Assembly (NCBI GenBank): GCA_016928995.1
Contig: JAFGJS010000107.1
Location: forward strand, 1-11,901
Origin: Candidatus Sumerlaeota bacterium
GTDB lineage: Bacteria > Sumerlaeota > Sumerlaeia > JAFGJS01
Direction of reading: 5' to 3'
Length of the DNA stretch: 11,901 nucleotides
Positions 1 through 11,623 of this stretch are shown here, in pieces; the first letter of the stretch is position 1; every line of letters starts with the position of its first letter. The notes beneath the pieces are model-generated. The model was not told the origin of the DNA and ran no database searches. It was given only the letters and a program-made list of their open reading frames with translations. The translations under genes and the position numbers were made by a program.

Positions 1-72
1 CTGTTGCTGCTCGAACTCGCGCGAAGAAACGACGACTGGGACGAAATCTGGAGCGAACGCTTGGTAGCTTGA
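1..72 (+). CDS. 3' end of an unidentified gene
   Basis: Frame 1 is open from the left edge for 23 codons and ends in TGA at 70-72. The visible tail contains LLLLELARRNDDWDEI and ends ERLVA. It is rich in Leu and in acidic and basic residues, so it is probably a soluble helical C-terminus. No family can be recognised from so short a piece. The composition changes just downstream to more A/T-rich DNA, which fits a gene ending here. That it is coding at all is an inference from the open frame and the protein-like composition. Confidence 0.45.
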   Translation: MLLLELARRNDDWDEIWSERLVA

Positions 73-278
73 TCAAGATGCGCCCTGTGTGACAGGATGC
101 GGTTTATTGCTTTGACATGGAAACGCCCATATGGTTATGTGCTATCTTGACAAAAAGTCGCATTCATCTCCATGTCATAGCCATTAGGCCGGCTTATTTC
201 GGAACTTGGAGAAAGCGATGTATGATGAAGCGAAGACATCGAATTCAATTGAAAGATGGATCATACCCAGGAGAAAGA

Positions 279-1600: not shown

Positions 1601-3571
1601 TTAGATTTCCACGCCGAGTTCCTGGAATTTCGCGGCCACGGTGAGGAAGTGGGCGGTCATCCAGAAGACAGTCCAGCCTTCGGAGTATGTCCCGCGCATT
1701 TCGTAAACGCTGCTCGCCATGTTTTGATGCTGCACGTAATTCGTCTGGTTGACTTGCTCGCCCTGGCTGCCGAAGGGATCGATCAGCTGGCCGCAACTGC
1801 GATACATCACGAGCGCGAGCCGCTTCAGGTCGCCGCGCTGAAGCAGTTCGCCCATGCGATGCACCTCTGGCGCGAAGATGATGCCGAACACATCGAGGTG
1901 ATGGTTCTGCACGGACACGGCGGACCAGCCGCGCGTTTTGAGCGCATGATCGGCCAGCCGTCCGGGCGGCTGCACGATGTTCCAGACCACTGTGTAACTC
2001 AGCGCGACGTCCATCGCATGTCCGGCCCAGTCGAGATGCCGCGCCTCGCCGGTCATTTCGTAAACCGCGAGAAAGCCCTGGAACGCGGCCCAGGCGCCTT
2101 CCTTGTCTTCGCAGCTGGCGTCGAGCGTCCCGCCCCAGTACGGCTCGGTCATGTCCAGATGCCGCGCGGCGTAATGCTCCGCCGCTTTCAGCGCGGCCTT
2201 GCGATAACGATCCTCGCCGAAGAGCGCATAAGCCGCGCAGAGTGGTTCGATGTAAAAGCCTTCATTGGTCGATACCGGGCGCCAATCCTCGCGCATGATA
2301 CGCTCCGCGTGCAGATCGCAAGCCTGGCGCAGGAACGCCTCCCATCGCTCCGTATTGATCTCAGGCATACCGCGCCCCACGCGAATCGCGCGCGCAAAAA
2401 TGCCCATCGCCTGACCCTGCGACACGTTGTCCTGATCTTTCCACTCGTTCGTGTCGGGAATGTACTTGAGATGAAAGCCCTTTTCGTTAAACGGCGAAGA
2501 GGCTAGGTGGTCCATCGCCTGTTGAGCCTTGCTGAGCGCTTCGGGATCGCCCAGCCGCGAATGCAGCAGCAGCTGCGCATAACCCGGCGCTTCGGCCTGA
2601 CCGCACCAGCCCATCACGAAGTCCTTGCGGTCGCCGGGGAACATGCGATATCCCGCAGCGTTCTCCGTTTCATACCAGCGCGACATGGCGAAGCGATATT
2701 TGCCTTCCAGGATTTGATCCACAGCCGGCAGACCCTCCAGGCTGAGCGGCTGGAAGAGCTCCACCGACGTGCGGATGGGCGTGCGGAAACCGTCGCCCTG
2801 GCGCGCGACGGGATAAGCCTCAATGAAAAAAGTTTTCTCGATGACATGACCAGGCGGAACGTTGAGCCACGCGTCGAGATACTCCGAGACGTATCCCTGG
2901 CCGCCCTTGACCACGCTGTCTTGTCCGTTCATCGCGCACGGCCCAGAGAGCAACGCCATTTCAGTCGCTCCGTCCAGCGCGCTGACGCCAAGCGACCACC
3001 ATTGATCGCGGATCTTCGCATGCGGCGCGGGCGAGGGGAGCGAGTGCAGCGCCGCGCCGAACCAGCCGCTGTCCGCGCTCCATTCAAGGCTGGCGAACGG
3101 CATGGGGCAGCGATGCTCCTCGATGAACAGCCGCGCGCCGGGCTGGCCGTCGAACTGCGGCACAACGCCGCGCCTGGTCCGCACGCCGGACGGGTTGCCG
3201 TAATAGCAATTCCCCGGAATCAGGGTTGTAGCGCCGCTTTGCGGAATCTGCCAGCGCACGGCGAGCGTGGTTTTGTCCGCCGCCTGCTCGCCGGTCCAGG
3301 TCCATCGCCGCACGCAACGAATCGCCGGGCCTTCGGCGCGATAAGCGTCGCGCAGAATCCATGCCCCACCATCGGTTTCGAGACGTCCGCGCACAATCGT
3401 CCATGGGCCTTGCGCTTCGATGCTTTCCGGATCGGCATGGCGCCAGTTCGACGGCCAGCCGTCCTTCCAATCCGTGGCGATCGACCATAAACCTTCTTCT
3501 GGTGAATTGAGCAGAACGCGACCGTCCTGCTCGAGTTGCATTCGGCGTTTATCGGCGATAGTCAGTTGCAT
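1601..3571 (-). CDS. Putative cytoplasmic six-hairpin glycosidase-like protein
   Basis: A 656-residue protein with no signal peptide or membrane segment, so cytoplasmic. I do not recognise the exact family. Residues about 1-260 are rich in beta-strand-type sequence and Trp (WTIVRGRLETDGGAWILRDA, GWFGAALHSLPSP), suggesting a beta-sandwich domain. Residues about 275-655 are repeated helices with aromatic and acidic loops (DFVMGWCGQAEAPGYAQLLL, NEGFYIEPLCAAYALFGEDR, YWGGTLDASCEDKEGAWAAF, WSAVSVQNHHLDVFGI, YSEGWTVFWMTAHFLT). That is the look of an (alpha/alpha)6 toroid as in several glycoside hydrolase and polysaccharide lyase families. Candidate acid residues lie in these loops (Asp484, Glu488), but none can be assigned. 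The ATG at 3571 has GGAG (complement of 3580-3583) eight bases upstream. The gene is divergent from the exported glycosidase unit across 508 bp, so it may handle imported sugars; that link is only proximity. Confidence 0.8.
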   Translation of the reverse strand: MQLTIADKRRMQLEQDGRVLLNSPEEGLWSIATDWKDGWPSNWRHADPESIEAQGPWTIVRGRLETDGGAWILRDAYRAEGPAIRCVRRWTWTGEQAADKTTLAVRWQIPQSGATTLIPGNCYYGNPSGVRTRRGVVPQFDGQPGARLFIEEHRCPMPFASLEWSADSGWFGAALHSLPSPAPHAKIRDQWWSLGVSALDGATEMALLSGPCAMNGQDSVVKGGQGYVSEYLDAWLNVPPGHVIEKTFFIEAYPVARQGDGFRTPIRTSVELFQPLSLEGLPAVDQILEGKYRFAMSRWYETENAAGYRMFPGDRKDFVMGWCGQAEAPGYAQLLLHSRLGDPEALSKAQQAMDHLASSPFNEKGFHLKYIPDTNEWKDQDNVSQGQAMGIFARAIRVGRGMPEINTERWEAFLRQACDLHAERIMREDWRPVSTNEGFYIEPLCAAYALFGEDRYRKAALKAAEHYAARHLDMTEPYWGGTLDASCEDKEGAWAAFQGFLAVYEMTGEARHLDWAGHAMDVALSYTVVWNIVQPPGRLADHALKTRGWSAVSVQNHHLDVFGIIFAPEVHRMGELLQRGDLKRLALVMYRSCGQLIDPFGSQGEQVNQTNYVQHQNMASSVYEMRGTYSEGWTVFWMTAHFLTVAAKFQELGVEI

Positions 3572-3920: not shown

Positions 3921-3997
3921 ATATAAAGAATGCTGATTTGAGCATTCAGATATAAAGAGTGCCGATTGAATCATCCTAATATATTGAGGAATGCTGA
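3921..3997 (+). repeat. Three related direct repeats upstream of the operon
   Basis: ATATAAAGAATGCTGAT (3921-3937) is repeated with two changes at 3950-3966, and a third, weaker copy (ATATTGAGGAATGCTGA) lies at 3981-3997. The shared core GARTGCYGA starts at 3928, 3957 and 3989, spacings of 29 and 32 bases, close to three helical turns. The first copy is also the left half of a perfect dyad, GAATGCTgatttgAGCATTC (3928-3947). Face-phased repeats suggest cooperative protein binding; the dyad could also fold in the leader RNA. Confidence 0.5.
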
Positions 3998-4079: not shown

Positions 4080-7000
4080 ATGAAAATGCTGGGAAACACA
4101 CGGGTGAAGAGTCTATTGGCGATATTGTTTCTGGTGATGTCGCCGATTATTGCGCTGGGACAAACAACTCTGAATATCACCGATGATGTCATCACTTACA
4201 GCAGTTTGACCGACACGACCGTGAACATGAGCGGCCGTTCGGAACTGCATATCACCGCGGCCGCCACTCCGCTTACCAGCTGCGAAGTCAATCTTGATTC
4301 GCTGAATTCATGGCTGTTTCTGGAGCAGATCAAGCCATCGGTGGCCGTTTCCACTTATTTAAGCCAGGTCAATGTCAGCGGCGCCGCGGCGGCGCTGAAC
4401 ACCAACGTGCGCGTTGTGCAATACGCCGATGGCGCCGTGGTCATCCCTCAAGCGTCCACCTATCAGCCTCTGCAAGTGTTCACCGAGGAGAACTTCATGG
4501 GCGATTCCGCGTCTCTGAGCCAATACACCGAATACGACTCGGATGCACTGGGAGCGATGGCATCGGAGATCAGTTCTTTCATCTTGAAACGAGGATACAC
4601 CGCGACGTTCGCCCAGAACGAAAACGGCAGCGGCTACAGCATGAACTATGTGGCGCAGGATTGCGATCTGGAAATCGGCGTGCTTCCAAGCAAACTGGAT
4701 AACAAAATCAATTTTGTTCGAGTTTTTCCCTGGCGCTGGATCAGCAAAAAAGGCTCTTGTGACGCTTCACCCACGGATCTGGAGGCCTATTGGTGGTACA
4801 ATTGGAATATCAATCAGAATTCCACGCTGGATTTGGAGTACGTTGCAATCCACCAACAGCCCTATTGGCCCGGCCTCAGTCAGGATTGGCAAGCCAGGGG
4901 AGTCAATCATTTGTCTGGCTTCAATGAACCCGACAATCCCGTTGAAGATGCCTATAAAAATCTAAATAACGGTTCAGTGGATTCGGCGATCTACCACTGG
5001 CCGCCGCATTTAGCGACTGGCCTGCGAGTCGGAGCTCCGGCCGTCACCGATGGAGGACGGGATTGGCTTTATCAGTTCATCGATGCCGCGGACGCCGCCG
5101 GCTTGCGTGTCGATTACGTTCCGATTCATTATTATTGGTGCTACAGCAATAATGATTATCCGGCGGGCGCGGCGACTCAACTTTATAACTTTTTAAAGGC
5201 TGTGCATGACGAGGTTCAGCGGCCGATTTGGCTGACGGAATTCAACAATGGGGCCAACTGGACGGGCTGCACCGATCCGAGCTATGCGCAAAACAGCGCT
5301 GTGATCGAGGCGATGATCGATATGCTGGATAGCACTCCATGGGTTGAGCGTTATGCGATCTACAGCCGTGTGGAGTACATGCGTCAAACGCATTACGACG
5401 AGGGCGGCTTGACGCCGATGGGCGTGATGTATCGTGATCATGTCGCGCCGATCGGCTACCAGCAGGCGGTTCCAGGCTCCGGGAAGAGCCCGAACGCCAT
5501 TTATCATTTCGATGCAGATTTCCGGGACAGCTCCGGCAACGGCAACCACCCGCTGCAATACGGCGCGCCGAAACTGCCCGCCGGACAGCAGGGCAACGCC
5601 CTGAATCTCGACGGCGTTGACGATTATCTCGTGCTTCCGACCAATATGGGCGAGGGCGATGACTTCACTTTCGCCGCGTGGGTCTATTGGAACGGCGGCG
5701 ATATGAATCAGCGCATTTTCGATTTCGGCAACGGCACATCGGAGTATATGTTCCTCACGCCGCGCTCCGGCACGGAAAATTTACGCTTTGGATTCAGGAC
5801 GTCCGCGGTCTATGAAAACCTGTACGGCTCAACGGCATTGGCCACGGGAACATGGACGCATGTCGCGGTCACCCTGGACGGAGACGTGGGCACGCTTTAT
5901 GTGAACGGAACAGCCGTGGACACTCAGACGGTCACCAACGATCCATCGGACATGCTTCCGCAAAACAATTTCCTTGGCGACAGCCAGTGGTCCGCCGATC
6001 CGCTGTTCAGCGGCATGCTGGACGAGGTTGTCATAGCGGATTACGCCATGAGCGCCGCGCAGATTACCGACCTGCTCGACAATCAACCGCCCCAATTCAA
6101 CACGGATCCCATCGATGGCGGGAACGCCATGCAGAGAGTGGATTACAGCGGCAGCATCGCCAGTTACGCGACCGATCCCGACGCCGGCGACACGCTGACC
6201 TTCAGCAAACTCTCCGGCCCGGACTGGCTGACGGTGGCGGCGGACGGCTCGCTTTCCGGCACGCCCTACATCAATGACGGCGGAGAGAATGTGTTCGTCG
6301 TCTGCGTGAGCGACGGTCTCAGCGGCAGCGATCAGGCGTTGCTCAACATCACCGTCGAGGATACGGCGCAGATCGCGGTTCATTATAAATTCGACGGCGA
6401 CACCAATGACTGCATCGGAATTTTCGACGGCGTGCCGGCTGGCAGTCCGGTGTATGCGACCGGCCAGCTCGATCAAGCCATCGACCTGGATGGCTCCAAT
6501 GATCTCGTGACATTGCCCGAGGGCGTGGCCGAGTTTGACGACATCACCATCGCCGCCTGGGTCAATTGGGACGGCGGCGGCTCCTGGCAGCGTATCTTCG
6601 ACTTCGGCAACGGCACCTCGGAGTATATGTTCCTCACGCCGTCCAGCGGCACTGGGATTTTGCGCTTCGCGATGTTGACCGGCAGCGGCGAGCAGCAGCT
6701 GAACGCCTCGTCGGCGTTGTCCACCAGCGCATGGAGGCATGTCGCCGTGACGATCAGCGGAAACACGGGCCGGATGTATGTCAACGGTTCGCAAGTCGCG
6801 TACAATCTCTCTATGACCATCAATCCCTCCGACATCAATCAGGCGATCAACTATATCGGCGACAGCCAGTGGTCCTCCGATCCTTTCTTCAACGGACGGA
6901 TCGACGACTTCCGTATTTATAACTACGCGCTGAGCGTCGCGGAGATCGCCGATGTGATGTCCGGCGGGCATGCTCCGTATTTCGCGAGCAATTCAATCCA

Positions 7001-8009
7001 TAAACCAAACGCAACGCCGGGCGAGGTGTACAGCAGTTCGCTGGATATTCCGGACGACGCTGATGACGCCGACAATTATATCAATCCGAACGACAATGCG
7101 CTCGACACGACTGGTGGAGACGCCGCCGCTGCGCTTGCTGCATCGGCGGTCGTGAGCAATTTCACCGGTTCCAGCGGAGCGTTTACCTTCGAGGCCATCG
7201 TTTGTCCGCAGGTGAACATTGGAGCGATCCCCAATGAAATGCAGATCATCTCCGGCGATAGTCCCAGCGACCGTTCATGGCACTTCCGCGTCACGACCGC
7301 CGGCGCCCTTGAATTCAACAACATCGACGGCGCCCTTTGTTCCGCCACGATTCCAACGACGGGCAATCATGCCTGGGCTGCCGGCGAATGGTTCCATGTC
7401 GCGGCCACGTACACCGGAACTCCGAGCGTCGCGGGCAATATGAAACTGTATTGGACGCGGCTCGATTCCGGAGTCGCCTCGGCTGTGCAGCTGGGTTCGT
7501 TCACCCAAACCGCCGATCTCACCTCGACCGATAACATAGTCTTTGGCGTCGGCAATGAAGGACGATCGCCCAGTGAAAATTTCGAAGGCCTGATCGACGA
7601 AGTTCGCATCAGCGATACCGCGCGGGCGACGCTGGATCTTTCCACGCCGTTCAGCGCGGATTCCAGCACGATCCACCTTTATCATTTGAACGGCAACGGC
7701 AGCGATGCGGTCGCCGCCAGCGCGATTGACTTGACTTTTTCAGGCGGCGCCGTCGCCACGGCGGATTCGTATTTCCCGTCCGGCGCGGGTGAAACGCTGA
7801 CATTCAGCAAGATTTCCGGACCGGGCTGGTTAGGCGTGGCCGCTGACGGCACGCTTGCCGGCGCGCCGTCCAGTGAGGATGCCGGCCTCAACAGCTTCAC
7901 GGTGCGCGTGACCGACGCCGGTGGGCTGTATGACGAAGCGATCTTGAATATCACCGTCTTCAACGGCGTTATTCCAGACACATCTGCAGCGATTTGGATG
8001 TTATACTAA
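4080..8009 (+). CDS. Secreted multidomain GH128-like glycosidase with beta-gamma-crystallin-like, LamG and Ig-like modules
   Basis: 1309 residues. Signal peptide 1-27 (hydrophobic core LLAILFLVM, cleavage after ALG), so exported. Residues about 30-130 are beta-rich. About 131-217 resemble a beta-gamma-crystallin module: F134-x4-F139-x-G141 fits the Greek-key signature, while the calcium motifs (ASEISS, DNKINF) are degenerate. About 218-460 form a TIM-barrel domain of the GH128/Asl1-like type (beta-1,3-glucanases): the acid/base is probably Glu283 in GFNEPD and the nucleophile Glu387 in WLTEFN, with His350 in VPIHYYW. Then come LamG-1 (about 470-668), an Ig-like He_PIG module (670-760), LamG-2 (764-960), and a second Ig-like module split by a LamG-3 block (see findings). 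The C-terminus has no membrane anchor or sorting tail. The start is supported by GAGG (4069-4072); an in-frame ATG at 4086 is an alternative. The next gene starts one base after the stop. Substrate is inferred only from the family. Confidence 0.85.
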   Translation: MKMLGNTRVKSLLAILFLVMSPIIALGQTTLNITDDVITYSSLTDTTVNMSGRSELHITAAATPLTSCEVNLDSLNSWLFLEQIKPSVAVSTYLSQVNVSGAAAALNTNVRVVQYADGAVVIPQASTYQPLQVFTEENFMGDSASLSQYTEYDSDALGAMASEISSFILKRGYTATFAQNENGSGYSMNYVAQDCDLEIGVLPSKLDNKINFVRVFPWRWISKKGSCDASPTDLEAYWWYNWNINQNSTLDLEYVAIHQQPYWPGLSQDWQARGVNHLSGFNEPDNPVEDAYKNLNNGSVDSAIYHWPPHLATGLRVGAPAVTDGGRDWLYQFIDAADAAGLRVDYVPIHYYWCYSNNDYPAGAATQLYNFLKAVHDEVQRPIWLTEFNNGANWTGCTDPSYAQNSAVIEAMIDMLDSTPWVERYAIYSRVEYMRQTHYDEGGLTPMGVMYRDHVAPIGYQQAVPGSGKSPNAIYHFDADFRDSSGNGNHPLQYGAPKLPAGQQGNALNLDGVDDYLVLPTNMGEGDDFTFAAWVYWNGGDMNQRIFDFGNGTSEYMFLTPRSGTENLRFGFRTSAVYENLYGSTALATGTWTHVAVTLDGDVGTLYVNGTAVDTQTVTNDPSDMLPQNNFLGDSQWSADPLFSGMLDEVVIADYAMSAAQITDLLDNQPPQFNTDPIDGGNAMQRVDYSGSIASYATDPDAGDTLTFSKLSGPDWLTVAADGSLSGTPYINDGGENVFVVCVSDGLSGSDQALLNITVEDTAQIAVHYKFDGDTNDCIGIFDGVPAGSPVYATGQLDQAIDLDGSNDLVTLPEGVAEFDDITIAAWVNWDGGGSWQRIFDFGNGTSEYMFLTPSSGTGILRFAMLTGSGEQQLNASSALSTSAWRHVAVTISGNTGRMYVNGSQVAYNLSMTINPSDINQAINYIGDSQWSSDPFFNGRIDDFRIYNYALSVAEIADVMSGGHAPYFASNSIHKPNATPGEVYSSSLDIPDDADDADNYINPNDNALDTTGGDAAAALAASAVVSNFTGSSGAFTFEAIVCPQVNIGAIPNEMQIISGDSPSDRSWHFRVTTAGALEFNNIDGALCSATIPTTGNHAWAAGEWFHVAATYTGTPSVAGNMKLYWTRLDSGVASAVQLGSFTQTADLTSTDNIVFGVGNEGRSPSENFEGLIDEVRISDTARATLDLSTPFSADSSTIHLYHLNGNGSDAVAASAIDLTFSGGAVATADSYFPSGAGETLTFSKISGPGWLGVAADGTLAGAPSSEDAGLNSFTVRVTDAGGLYDEAILNITVFNGVIPDTSAAIWMLY
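5487..6959 (+). repeat. Internal duplication: LamG-1 and LamG-2 coding units
   Basis: Two LamG-encoding stretches (about 5487-6083 and 6369-6959) are recent-looking duplicates. The protein stretch RIFDFGNGTSEYMFLTP is identical at residues 545 and 838, which are 293 residues (879 bp) apart, and GDSQWS recurs near residues 633 and 927. DNA identity is also high in these blocks, for example GGAGTATATGTTCCTCACGC in both. An Ig-like module separates the copies, so the duplicated unit was probably LamG plus Ig-like. Confidence 0.7.
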
Positions 8010-8010
8010 A

Positions 8011-9798
8011 ATGATGAACACGATTCGCCCAAAGACGATTTCATTATGGATGATCACGGGAGCGGCTCTGCTGTGCATGCGCCCGCTTCATGCGCAGACG
8101 GACGCCTTCTATGAATGGCCGGCGTATAATCCCACCGTCGCCTATGATTACGTCGATGAATTCGGACAGATCGATCCGCCCACGAAGATGCTGGATGACG
8201 TCACTGGCGTGGCCGGCTCTTATATCGACGGATGGTGGTGCTTTCGCTACGGCGCCAGGAAAAATGACCTGGCGACCTCGGATTCCTGGATTCCGATGCT
8301 CGAGCGCCTTAACAAGGACTTCGCGTACATTACCGACGTGATGCGCTGGCCGCGAGACTTGCGCGCCCGTGAAGGATATTACAGCGCGGTCTATCTCTTC
8401 GGCTCCGGACTCAGCACCGACGACGCTCCCAACACGGCCTTGGGCGGATGGCAGGGGACGACGTATTACCAGGACCGGCATTGGCCGATGATCCTCGCTT
8501 CGTATTACCCGGTGCATTGCTTCGATCCAGCGTACACCGGCGACGACAAAGCTTTTCAGACGGGCGCCATGGTGCATGAAGGCATCCATTGCATCCTTTC
8601 GAGCATGCCGGGATGCAAGAACGCCCCGTGGTTTCATGAAGGCGGAAACACCTGGCTGCAAGGCACGATGGAGGCGCAGCGTTCGGGCGATTTCAGCAGC
8701 ATCGGGTGGCTCAGCGCCGGCGCGATGATCGCCCCGTTCATGCCGATCGAGTGCTACTCCGGGTGGCTGCAGGACGATTCCTTCGGCGGTCCCGCCGCCG
8801 AAGGCGTGAATATGTTTAAGGACGAAAAACAAATCTGCACCTGGCGCAAGCTGCTGGGCGGCGCGCAATACGGGGAGTGTTTTCCGCATGCGATGGAAGT
8901 CATCCTCGGCCCGCAAAGCGTCGCCTGGGTTTGGCGCTATTCAACGCAAAGCGGCCGCGTGTTGCAGGACCTGGCCGAAGCGCCCGGTGGATTGGGCGAA
9001 ATCCAAACCCGCCGTTTGATTCAGGAATATCGCGCCCGGCAGGCCTTTTGCGATTTCGGTTCCTGGTCCTATGCGTTTATGCAACTGCTGAACAACAATT
9101 GGAAGATGGCCATCGGCGCCGAATGGAAACCGAACTGGATCGATTGCGACGTCTGGAACGTGACCTGTTACGCGGTCACGACGCAGAACGGAAAAGAACT
9201 GACTCCGGAAACTCGCACACTGCCCGGCTGGTCCGGCGCCAATCAAATTCCATTGACCGTCGATCCCGGCGCCAAGCAGGCCACGGTCGTCTTCAATCCC
9301 ATCGGAAAAAGTATGAGTTGCCAGTTGGTCTATCGCGACACGAGCGGCAAAGTTCGCTATGGCGATCCGGTGTTCAGCGGTGAGTGCGGTATTCCCTTGG
9401 CCGACGTGCGGAACAATGTTATCGTCGCCGTGATCTGCAACACGGATTACGTTTATGAAGGCGAAAGCACCCGCAAGGCGAAATTCGATTACCGGCTGAC
9501 AATGGGCGAGGGCGTCACGGGCCCCGCTGACATTTATACGAAGTGGTACGACTACTCCGCCGCCAGTTACACTGTCACGGCGTCCGCCAGCGGCAACGGC
9601 GCAATCAGCCCCTCCGGCAGCGTCTCCGTTGACGCCGGGGCCAGCAGCGCGTTCACCATCACGCCGCAACCGGGCTATCAGGTCTCCAGCGTCGCCATCG
9701 ACGGCGTGAAGATCGGCAAAGTGACGGCATACACCTTCGTCAACGTGCGAGGCGATCACGCCATCTCCGCGACGTTCGCTCCGGCCGGAGCGAACTAG
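8011..9798 (+). CDS. Putative secreted zincin metallopeptidase with C-terminal InlB-type repeat domain
   Basis: 595 residues. Signal peptide 1-28 (ISLWMITGAALLCM core, cleavage after LHA), so exported. HEGIH (189-193) followed by WFHEGGNTW, with Glu210 seventeen residues on, fits a gluzincin-type site (HExxH plus a downstream Glu as third zinc ligand). Trp- and Cys-rich surroundings suggest disulphides in an extracellular enzyme. The main domain (about 30-510) is, to my recollection, like an uncharacterised secreted family (possibly DUF6055); peptidase activity is inferred from the motif only. Residues about 519-591 (YTVTASASGNGAISPSG, PGYQVSSVAIDG, HAISATFAP) are a divergent InlB B-repeat (Flg_new_2-type) module, common on cell-surface proteins. 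The start is ATGATG one base after the preceding TAA, with only a weak upstream GGA, so translation probably depends on coupling. The stop is followed directly by a hairpin-pair element. Confidence 0.82.
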   Translation: MMNTIRPKTISLWMITGAALLCMRPLHAQTDAFYEWPAYNPTVAYDYVDEFGQIDPPTKMLDDVTGVAGSYIDGWWCFRYGARKNDLATSDSWIPMLERLNKDFAYITDVMRWPRDLRAREGYYSAVYLFGSGLSTDDAPNTALGGWQGTTYYQDRHWPMILASYYPVHCFDPAYTGDDKAFQTGAMVHEGIHCILSSMPGCKNAPWFHEGGNTWLQGTMEAQRSGDFSSIGWLSAGAMIAPFMPIECYSGWLQDDSFGGPAAEGVNMFKDEKQICTWRKLLGGAQYGECFPHAMEVILGPQSVAWVWRYSTQSGRVLQDLAEAPGGLGEIQTRRLIQEYRARQAFCDFGSWSYAFMQLLNNNWKMAIGAEWKPNWIDCDVWNVTCYAVTTQNGKELTPETRTLPGWSGANQIPLTVDPGAKQATVVFNPIGKSMSCQLVYRDTSGKVRYGDPVFSGECGIPLADVRNNVIVAVICNTDYVYEGESTRKAKFDYRLTMGEGVTGPADIYTKWYDYSAASYTVTASASGNGAISPSGSVSVDAGASSAFTITPQPGYQVSSVAIDGVKIGKVTAYTFVNVRGDHAISATFAPAGAN

Positions 9799-9934: not shown

Positions 9935-11209
9935 TTATTGTGTACAGGCTTTCGCGCAGGGAAGATCGTTCCAGCGCGTGGTGTAATGCGGCGTCAGGCG
10001 GCTGCGGCGCATGTGCCAGGCTCGCTGAACGCCTTGCGCGGCCGAGTAGATCGTGTCGCGGCCCCAGCGCGTGTTCAGCGTGTCCAGCGCGCGCATGATA
10101 TTTTGCTTTTCCTGAATGCGTCCATCCGGCGAGATGAAGTCCTGTTGCACGGCGTCCGCCTCGGCCAGATCAAGCAACAGCACCCCCGCCTTGTGATAGC
10201 GATAGCCGGATTTGTAAATGCGGCGCAGCAATTCCTCCGCGGCGGCGATCAAATCCGGATTGTGATTGGTCTTCACGGCGAACTGCGTCAGCGCTGAATT
10301 CGAATATTGCGCGCCGGGCATGTGCGGACTGGTTTGCAGCCAAACCTGGATCATGCCCGCCGCGCTTTTTTGCTTGCGGAGTTTTTCGCCCGCCCGTGCG
10401 GCGTAATTGGCGACCGCCTCGCGGATCGGTTCGAAGGCGGAGAGCTTGCGTCCGAACATCCGCGAGCAGCTCACGGCATCCTTCGCCGCGTGAAAGTTTT
10501 TCAGTTCGATGCACGACTCGCCGCGCAGCTCGCGCAAGGTGCGCTCGCCCACGACGCTCAGCGTCTTGTTGGCCCAGCGCGGATCGGCGCGCTTCAAGTC
10601 GAGCGCCGTGTGAATTTTGGCTCTGTGCAGTTTGAGCGCCTGGCGTGAGGCGATCCCCCAGATGTCCTCAATCGCCACTCCCGCCAGCAGCGCGTCCGCG
10701 TCCGTCTCGCTCAGCAGTTCGTAGTTGAACACGCCGTAGTTCTGCTTGGCTTGCCGCGCCGCGATTTTCGCCAGCGTCATCGACGGCGCCACGCCGATGG
10801 AAACCGGAATGCCCGTCCATTGCAGCACCGTGCTACGCAGCTCGTTGGCGAACGCCGACCGCTCGCGCGCCGGGATCGCGGTCAGATCGAGGAACGCCTC
10901 GTCAATCGAATAGATTTCCGTCTTCGGGCAGAACTGCTCCAGGATGCTCATCACGCGGCGCGACATGTCGGCGTAGAGCGTATAGTTCGACGAGAGCATC
11001 ACCACGCCATGGCGCTCCAGCAGCGCGCGCTGCTCGATCACGCCCGACGCCATCGGAATGCCCAGCGCCTTGGCCTCGCGCGAGCGCGCCACGATGAAGC
11101 AGTCGTTGTTCGACAGCACCACGACCGGCCGTCCGCGCAAGGACGGATCGAACACCCGCTCGCACGAGCAATAAAAACTGTCGCAATCGACCAGCGCCCA
11201 GGATTTCAT
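9935..11209 (-). CDS. umuC: Y-family DNA polymerase V catalytic subunit UmuC
   Basis: 424 residues, normal length for UmuC. This error-prone polymerase copies past damaged bases as the UmuD'2C complex with RecA and the sliding clamp. Palm-domain metal ligands are visible: Asp8 in VDCDSFY and Asp103/Glu104 in [11 protein letters not shown]; Tyr13 is the expected steric-gate residue. Further conserved blocks are [14 protein letters not shown] (74-87) and [20 protein letters not shown] (134-153). A helix-hairpin-helix thumb region follows ([12 protein letters not shown]), then the little-finger domain (about 245-350). The tail [18 protein letters not shown] (381-398) and [11 protein letters not shown] is the DUF4113-type C-terminus typical of UmuC. 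The ATG lies one base beyond the umuD stop (TGA-A-ATG), indicating translational coupling. The gene appears intact. Confidence 0.96.
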
Positions 11210-11210
11210 T

Positions 11211-11585
11211 TCACTTCGCCTTGTGAATCGCGTATGTCACCACACCGAAAATCGCGTCGTCGCCGCTCAGCGCAATGGGTTGATAGTTGATGTTCTCCGG
11301 CACGAGCAGCGGCCGGCCGTTGCGATGCCGCAGCCGCTTCACTGTGAACTCGCCGTCGTGCGAGGCGATCACGATGCTGCCGTCCGCCGGCGTGATCGAG
11401 CGATCCACGATCAGCAGATCGCCGTCATGGATCCCCGCGCCGGTCATCGAATCGCCCGACACGCGCACGAAGTACGTCGCCGCCGCATTCTTGATCAGGT
11501 GCTCGTTCAGATCGAGCGTCCCCTCGACGTAATCATCCGCCGGACTCGGAAATCCCGCCGACACCGCGCAATTAAACAACTGCAT
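11211..11585 (-). CDS. umuD: UmuD, S24 (LexA-like) self-cleaving subunit of DNA polymerase V
   Basis: With the ATG at 11585 it is 124 residues. RecA-stimulated self-cleavage makes UmuD', the active partner of UmuC. The cleavage site is Ala-Gly in [17 protein letters not shown]. The catalytic Ser lies in [19 protein letters not shown] and the general-base Lys in GEFTVKRLR; the end [12 protein letters not shown] is typical. I prefer this ATG because AAGG and AGGAG lie just upstream and the best promoter (11624-11652) would start RNA near 11617, downstream of the alternative TTG codon at 11621. The TTG start would give 136 residues, closer to the E. coli length, with a basic N-terminus (NSKRASGAKAK). 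With the ATG only ten residues precede the scissile bond, unusually few. Damage-inducible control is expected from the family; I found no clear LexA palindrome. Confidence 0.93.
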
Positions 11586-11623
11586 TTTCGCCTTTGCTCC
11601 TGACGCACGCTTTGAATTCAAAT

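Follow-up and report, generated by a model that had tools for sequence, protein, structure and literature searches.

The loop of the second Ig module in a glucanase-like protein of a Candidatus Sumerlaeota bacterium holds, with a probability that we put at about 0.8, a complete and circularly permuted LamG domain of another subfamily, lodged between the segments ...DDAD and AGETLTF... (residues 998/1236). The protein is encoded in the window, by which we mean the whole stretch of 11,901 nt that was analysed and that makes up all of contig C153 (JAFGJS010000107.1) of assembly GCA_016928995.1. The source genome (G000) is a draft of 4.55 Mb in 161 contigs and is rich in long paralogs built from LamG and Ig modules.

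The product of the 4080-8009 reading frame is predicted to be a secreted GH128-type enzyme, beta-1,3-glucanase-like, whose tail consists of LamG modules of carbohydrate-binding type and Ig spacers (Table 1). Its N-terminal stretch was judged by eye to be signal-peptide-like. The catalytic domain is identified by its match to the GH128 (Glyco_hydro_cc) profile PF11790, which stands against a cut-off of 21 bits, and its solved relatives (6uaq/6ufl/6uat) were recovered at E about 1e-23. It carries GFNEPD and WLTEFN, whose NEP and TEF motifs, read from sequence only, provide the candidate catalytic glutamates. The second LamG shows the usual order, its first strand (765-775) preceding the body.

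Table 1. Features of the glucanase-like gene and its modules, in window coordinates.
Feature	Residues	Coordinates	Strand	Basis or content
ORF, 1309 aa		4080..8009	+	signal-peptide-like N-terminus, GH128-type glycoside hydrolase, LamG, Ig, LamG, split Ig with nested permuted LamG
Glyco_hydro_cc (GH128-like) catalytic domain	232-451	4773..5432	+	Pfam PF11790, 95.3 bits
First Ig (He_PIG) module, intact	668-762	6081..6365	+	Pfam PF05345 at 688-759; 137 bits with the genome's own Ig HMM
Second LamG (Laminin_G_3), usual order	765-957	6372..6950	+	Pfam PF13385 at 804-957; sequence
Split Ig, N-half (model 9-42)	963-998	6966..7073	+	Ig HMM; collinear with intact Ig of paralog C82
Nested LamG, body (model 48-244)	999-1186	7074..7637	+	219 bits; AlphaFold pLDDT mostly 74-97
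Nested LamG, displaced first-strand block (model 2-47)	1187-1235	7638..7784	+	27.7 bits with full model; 39.7-47.9 bits with block model
Split Ig, C-half (model 43-102)	1236-1295	7785..7964	+	82 bits alone; 116.8 bits joined to N-half
Short C-terminal tail, ...AAIWMLY and stop		7965..8009	+	sequence

Several other features lie around this gene. Two imperfect 29-nt tandem copies (3921-3978) occupy a position about 100 nt upstream of it, and a 595-aa gene (8011-9798, plus strand) starts directly after it; the product of the latter contains HEGIH and HEGGN, is zinc-metallopeptidase-like and has Flg_new_2 as its sole Pfam match. On the minus strand are a 656-aa ORF with no Pfam match (1601-3571) and a pair consisting of a UmuC-like polymerase with DUF4113 and a UmuD-like S24 peptidase (9935-11621). 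The gene itself ends in a short W-x-[LIF]-Y motif (7986-8009) that recurs at the ends of many secreted proteins of the source genome, LamG/Ig proteins among them (C57, C136, C130, C119, C41 and C67), the set of tails being AAIWMLY, ASMWILY, SDRWLLY, SGHWVLY, SSRWQIY, PMRWFFY and TSNWMLY. Such tails may serve as a signal for sorting or anchoring at the C-terminus; when C-terminal W-x-L-Y was searched as a DNA pattern across the genome, 7 matches were obtained against 6 in the control, and so no enrichment.

The host Ig module was analysed with a profile (Ig HMM) built from 20 intact Ig modules of same-genome paralogs and the protein's own first Ig, 21 in all. Residues 963-998 align with model positions 9-42 at 10.5 bits, a weak match when taken alone, and residues 1229-1295 with positions 36-102 at 82.1 bits. 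A profile of the N-half only gave the 963-998 stretch 22.9 bits, the maximum in 5000 shuffles being 12.9. Joined, the two halves yield one match across model 9-102 at 116.8 bits and thereby match the full-length Ig profile. The initial annotation, drawn from nt 6969 to nt 7961 (residues 964 and 1294 of the ORF, a correspondence that holds), took residues 964-998 and 1234-1294 for the halves of an Ig (He_PIG) module, and the complementary model ranges of the two (9-42 and 43-102) bear this out. Over a grid of 23 x 18 join points the best join led from residue 998 to residue 1236, with shifts of 1-2 residues scoring nearly as high; it reads DDADDAD-AGETLTFSK and resembles DDASDVDAGDTLTFSK of a paralog. 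The insert thus spans about residues 999-1235 (nt 7074-7784), that is, 237 residues or 711 bp in frame at both junctions. As judged by this sequence comparison the junctions are placed to within a few residues, and nothing is lost at either one. At the edges of the insert stand ADNY (997-1000) and ADSY (1227-1230), which would be expected from overlapping breakpoints and are too short to serve as proof. Among the loci examined, the split Ig is unique to the window.

The insert was compared with a second profile (LamG HMM) built from 13 relatives, of which 9 come from loci of Phycisphaerae, Sedimentisphaerales and Haloferula and 4 from the same genome (C57, C136, C83 and C23). Residues 1002-1186 match model positions 48-244 at 219 bits and residues 1189-1241 match positions 2-55 at 27.7 bits (E 1.2e-10); the nested LamG is therefore complete, with its order rotated, and all positions 2-244 of the subfamily profile are covered. 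When the domain was rotated back by script the two matches of the unrotated sequence (223 and 29 bits) merged into a single one (model 2-242, 265.0 bits). A profile of the first-strand block gave 47.9 bits for residues 1187-1240, where 5000 shuffles reached at most 11.1. Furthermore, the nested domain keeps 24 of the 25 residues that are invariant in 18 relatives. Members of this subfamily are expected to have the first-strand block before the body; here the body (1002-1186) comes first and the block (1189-1235) after. The domain is consequently a circular permutant by the usual definition, having the same fold, a rotated order and no missing part. The original C-terminus runs straight on into the original N-terminus (VRISDTARATLD-LSTPFSADSSTIHLYH), and the new termini lie at the old loop between first strand and body. 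The initial annotation had described a body at about 1000-1195 followed by a displaced strand; the order was right, the body ends near 1186 instead, and the block occupies 1187-1235. Its label for the body, LamG-3, is correct as to the domain and fails insofar as it implies a simple third copy of the upstream LamGs: with the HMM of the nested domain these two score only 8-11 bits, and by profile score the nested LamG is of a subfamily distinct from both. The idea that the displaced block is the start of a further LamG was dropped, since no body follows the block.

Structure models support a permuted LamG that folds as one jelly roll with pentraxin/laminin-G strand order. The AlphaFold model of the window region has a pLDDT of 76.1 overall, and the nested LamG, mostly at 74-97, has the same strands in rotated order as the model of the usual-order paralog C57 (pLDDT 91.9); a strand is modelled at 1197-1202, inside the displaced block. 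Residues 958-1004, which include the Ig N-half, fall below 50. The model alignment contained no N-half Ig rows, these having been omitted from the input because MAFFT alignments misplaced the N-half fragments. Model residues 46-278 (1003-1235 of the protein) align with PAPP-A, pentraxins and laminin LG domains, with Z of 17-20 for pentraxins and PAPP-A and about 14 for laminin LG domains; the top match is 8d8o (Z 19.6), and C-reactive protein (CRP, 1gnh) follows the model from 48..275 to 6..206 at Z 17.5. Residues 8-247 of the C57 model align with domain 4 of AbnA (Z 20.0) and with CBM40 (Z 16.0), proteins that start with the strand in question. Since both LamG domains align over their full length, the displaced block (1187-1235) completes the LamG, as had been suspected for a strand at about 1196-1232. 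The window model has the pentraxin/laminin order and C57 the AbnA/CBM40 order, so the domain has moved between two natural strand orders. The likeness to pentraxins and laminin LG, in which the last strand block also lies at the C-terminus, is one of strand order and fold, at just 10-19% identity with the nested LamG, and does not by itself imply equivalent calcium or ligand sites.

The reference states on both sides of this arrangement are present among relatives. An insert-free homologue, proposed at the outset as the natural comparison, exists in the same genome: the full-length paralog C82 has the order GH-LamG-Ig-LamG-Ig, with an intact Ig at the same place. With the insert removed, the window protein is 49% identical to C82 over 412 columns, and the alignment runs straight across the join. 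On these sequences the simplest history would be that a C82-like ancestor gained the insert. For the insert itself, the LamG HMM was scanned over all fetched loci, including matches from 298 genomes of the class to which locus L045 belongs and from 40 of the window's own phylum. Every complete member of the subfamily that was gathered has the first-strand block first, and the order 48-244 then 2-55 occurs only in copies of the window. The statement that there is no other permuted member is based on the unfiltered match list, in which the other partial matches were weak, cut by the end of a locus or outside the subfamily; a separate set of 39 distinct LamG domains had been filtered for near-full-length matches. 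The usual-order relatives are the Laminin_G_3-type LamGs of secreted proteins of Phycisphaerae, Haloferula and the same genome (L045-L053, C57, C136, C83 and C23), which belong to the subfamily of the nested LamG (up to 58% identity, 24/25 invariants) and differ from it in having the first-strand block before the body and in not being nested.

Within the window's phylum, the subfamily was found at E 1e-5 only in the source genome, which has five copies (C57, C136, C83, C23 and C153), and in none of the 39 others; together with the close relatives in Phycisphaerae, this distribution suggests lateral transfer. The tree of LamG bodies did not resolve the donor of the insert, and direct tandem LamG-LamG arrays of the subfamily, looked for as a donor, were not seen among the gathered loci; its sole multi-copy protein (L106) has spacers of about 110 aa between copies. 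A plasmid search gave no match, and a match on a viral contig (L140) was to a terminase-like protein and was rejected as due to chance. No relative with the same nested and permuted arrangement was found in the genomes searched, and the arrangement is known from one genome.

The initial annotation had offered two readings, a circularly permuted LamG nested in an Ig loop and a recombination scar joining partial modules. According to the latter, pieces of an Ig and of one or two LamG modules were joined and the C-terminal third of the protein is a degenerate patchwork instead of two folded domains. The occurrence in a single genome fits such a scar, as does the Ig N-half, which is the weakest match and is unfolded in the model. 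However, both modules are complete without loss at either breakpoint, both junctions are in frame, nearly all LamG invariants are kept and the LamG is modelled with good confidence, all of which makes the scar improbable and leaves the nested permutant, with a best rejoining at 998/1236, as the supported reading. An artefact of assembly, in which two misjoins put LamG pieces inside an Ig gene, might be feared in a repeat-rich gene family prone to misassembly and in a contig of 11.9 kb from a draft of this fragmentation. The longest exact match to another contig within 6960-8010 is, however, 19 nt and lies inside the Ig C-half, no repeat crosses either junction, and the GC3 of the individual pieces (0.61-0.76) falls inside or near the values for the remainder of the gene (0.62-0.82). 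A chimera would moreover require two misjoins that each kept the reading frame and between them yielded complementary parts of two domains, and it is hardly credible. The Ig halves might also pair with those of a neighbouring molecule and not with each other, given that long inserts can promote strand swapping. The adjacent termini of a permuted insert should nevertheless make closure within a single chain easy, and inserted domains typically have close termini (PMC13114784); we regard swapping as very unlikely.

A further alternative concerns origin only and leaves the anatomy unchanged: permutation and nesting may have been separate events, a body-first LamG of the nested subfamily having existed before it was inserted into the Ig. 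We consider this a serious candidate, if somewhat short of an even chance. LamGs with the body before the first strand are common in Planctomycetota, including the short proteins L117 and L118, and their linkers resemble the C-to-N linker of the window LamG; on the other side, no permuted member of the nested subfamily appeared in the other gathered loci. These Planctomycetota domains (for example L114, L117 and L118) carry, like the window LamG, the block (DTLALYHFDEG...) after the body with the same breakpoint region, and differ in being free-standing or in rows, of another subfamily and outside any Ig. They apparently make up a whole lineage of permuted LamGs: a hand-written consensus probe for the body-first order matched 30 of 246 Planctomycetota genomes. 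The body-first LamG of L114 is located on a kinase-like protein.

Returning to the nested permutant, the Ig would close around the insert, and the LamG would form a side branch on it, adding a putative glycan-binding site next to the catalytic chain. We infer that one phase-shifted LamG unit, derived from a tandem array or a circle, was inserted in frame and in a single event into the Ig loop of an ancestor resembling C82. Whether permutation and nesting arose in the same step is a more speculative matter. It is conceivable, and on balance doubtful, that one crossover, located at the loop between first strand and body, brought a circular or tandem LamG unit into the Ig loop, in which case the permutation would record how the insertion took place.

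Insertion of domains and their circular permutation, two rearrangements that are mostly met separately, are explicitly distinguished in the literature (PMC13114784). BoPDA of Bacteroides ovatus has a natural domain inserted in a beta-sandwich module of carbohydrate-binding type (PMC11713874); unlike the window LamG, what is inserted there is a catalytic domain (CE4), for which no permutation is described. RG13, in which a circularly permuted TEM-1 was inserted in maltose-binding protein (PMC3375305), is like the window protein in nesting a permuted domain in another domain, and differs as a laboratory construct of unrelated folds built for allostery. A limited literature search found no publication in which a naturally permuted LamG lies nested within an Ig.

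Insertion and permutation here coincide in one domain with near-residue precision, and the reference states are available as an insert-free paralog and as usual-order relatives of the insert. The protein is consequently well suited to testing cleanly whether a permutation can result from an insertion. Note also that domain callers split or miss such modules. A LamG can switch between two natural strand orders of the fold, AbnA/CBM40-like and pentraxin/laminin-like, and keep its sequence family. If the one-step origin were true, the same route may also have left behind the body-first LamGs seen elsewhere, and the nested LamG may, by analogy with engineered permuted-insert switches, couple ligand binding to the Ig spacer.
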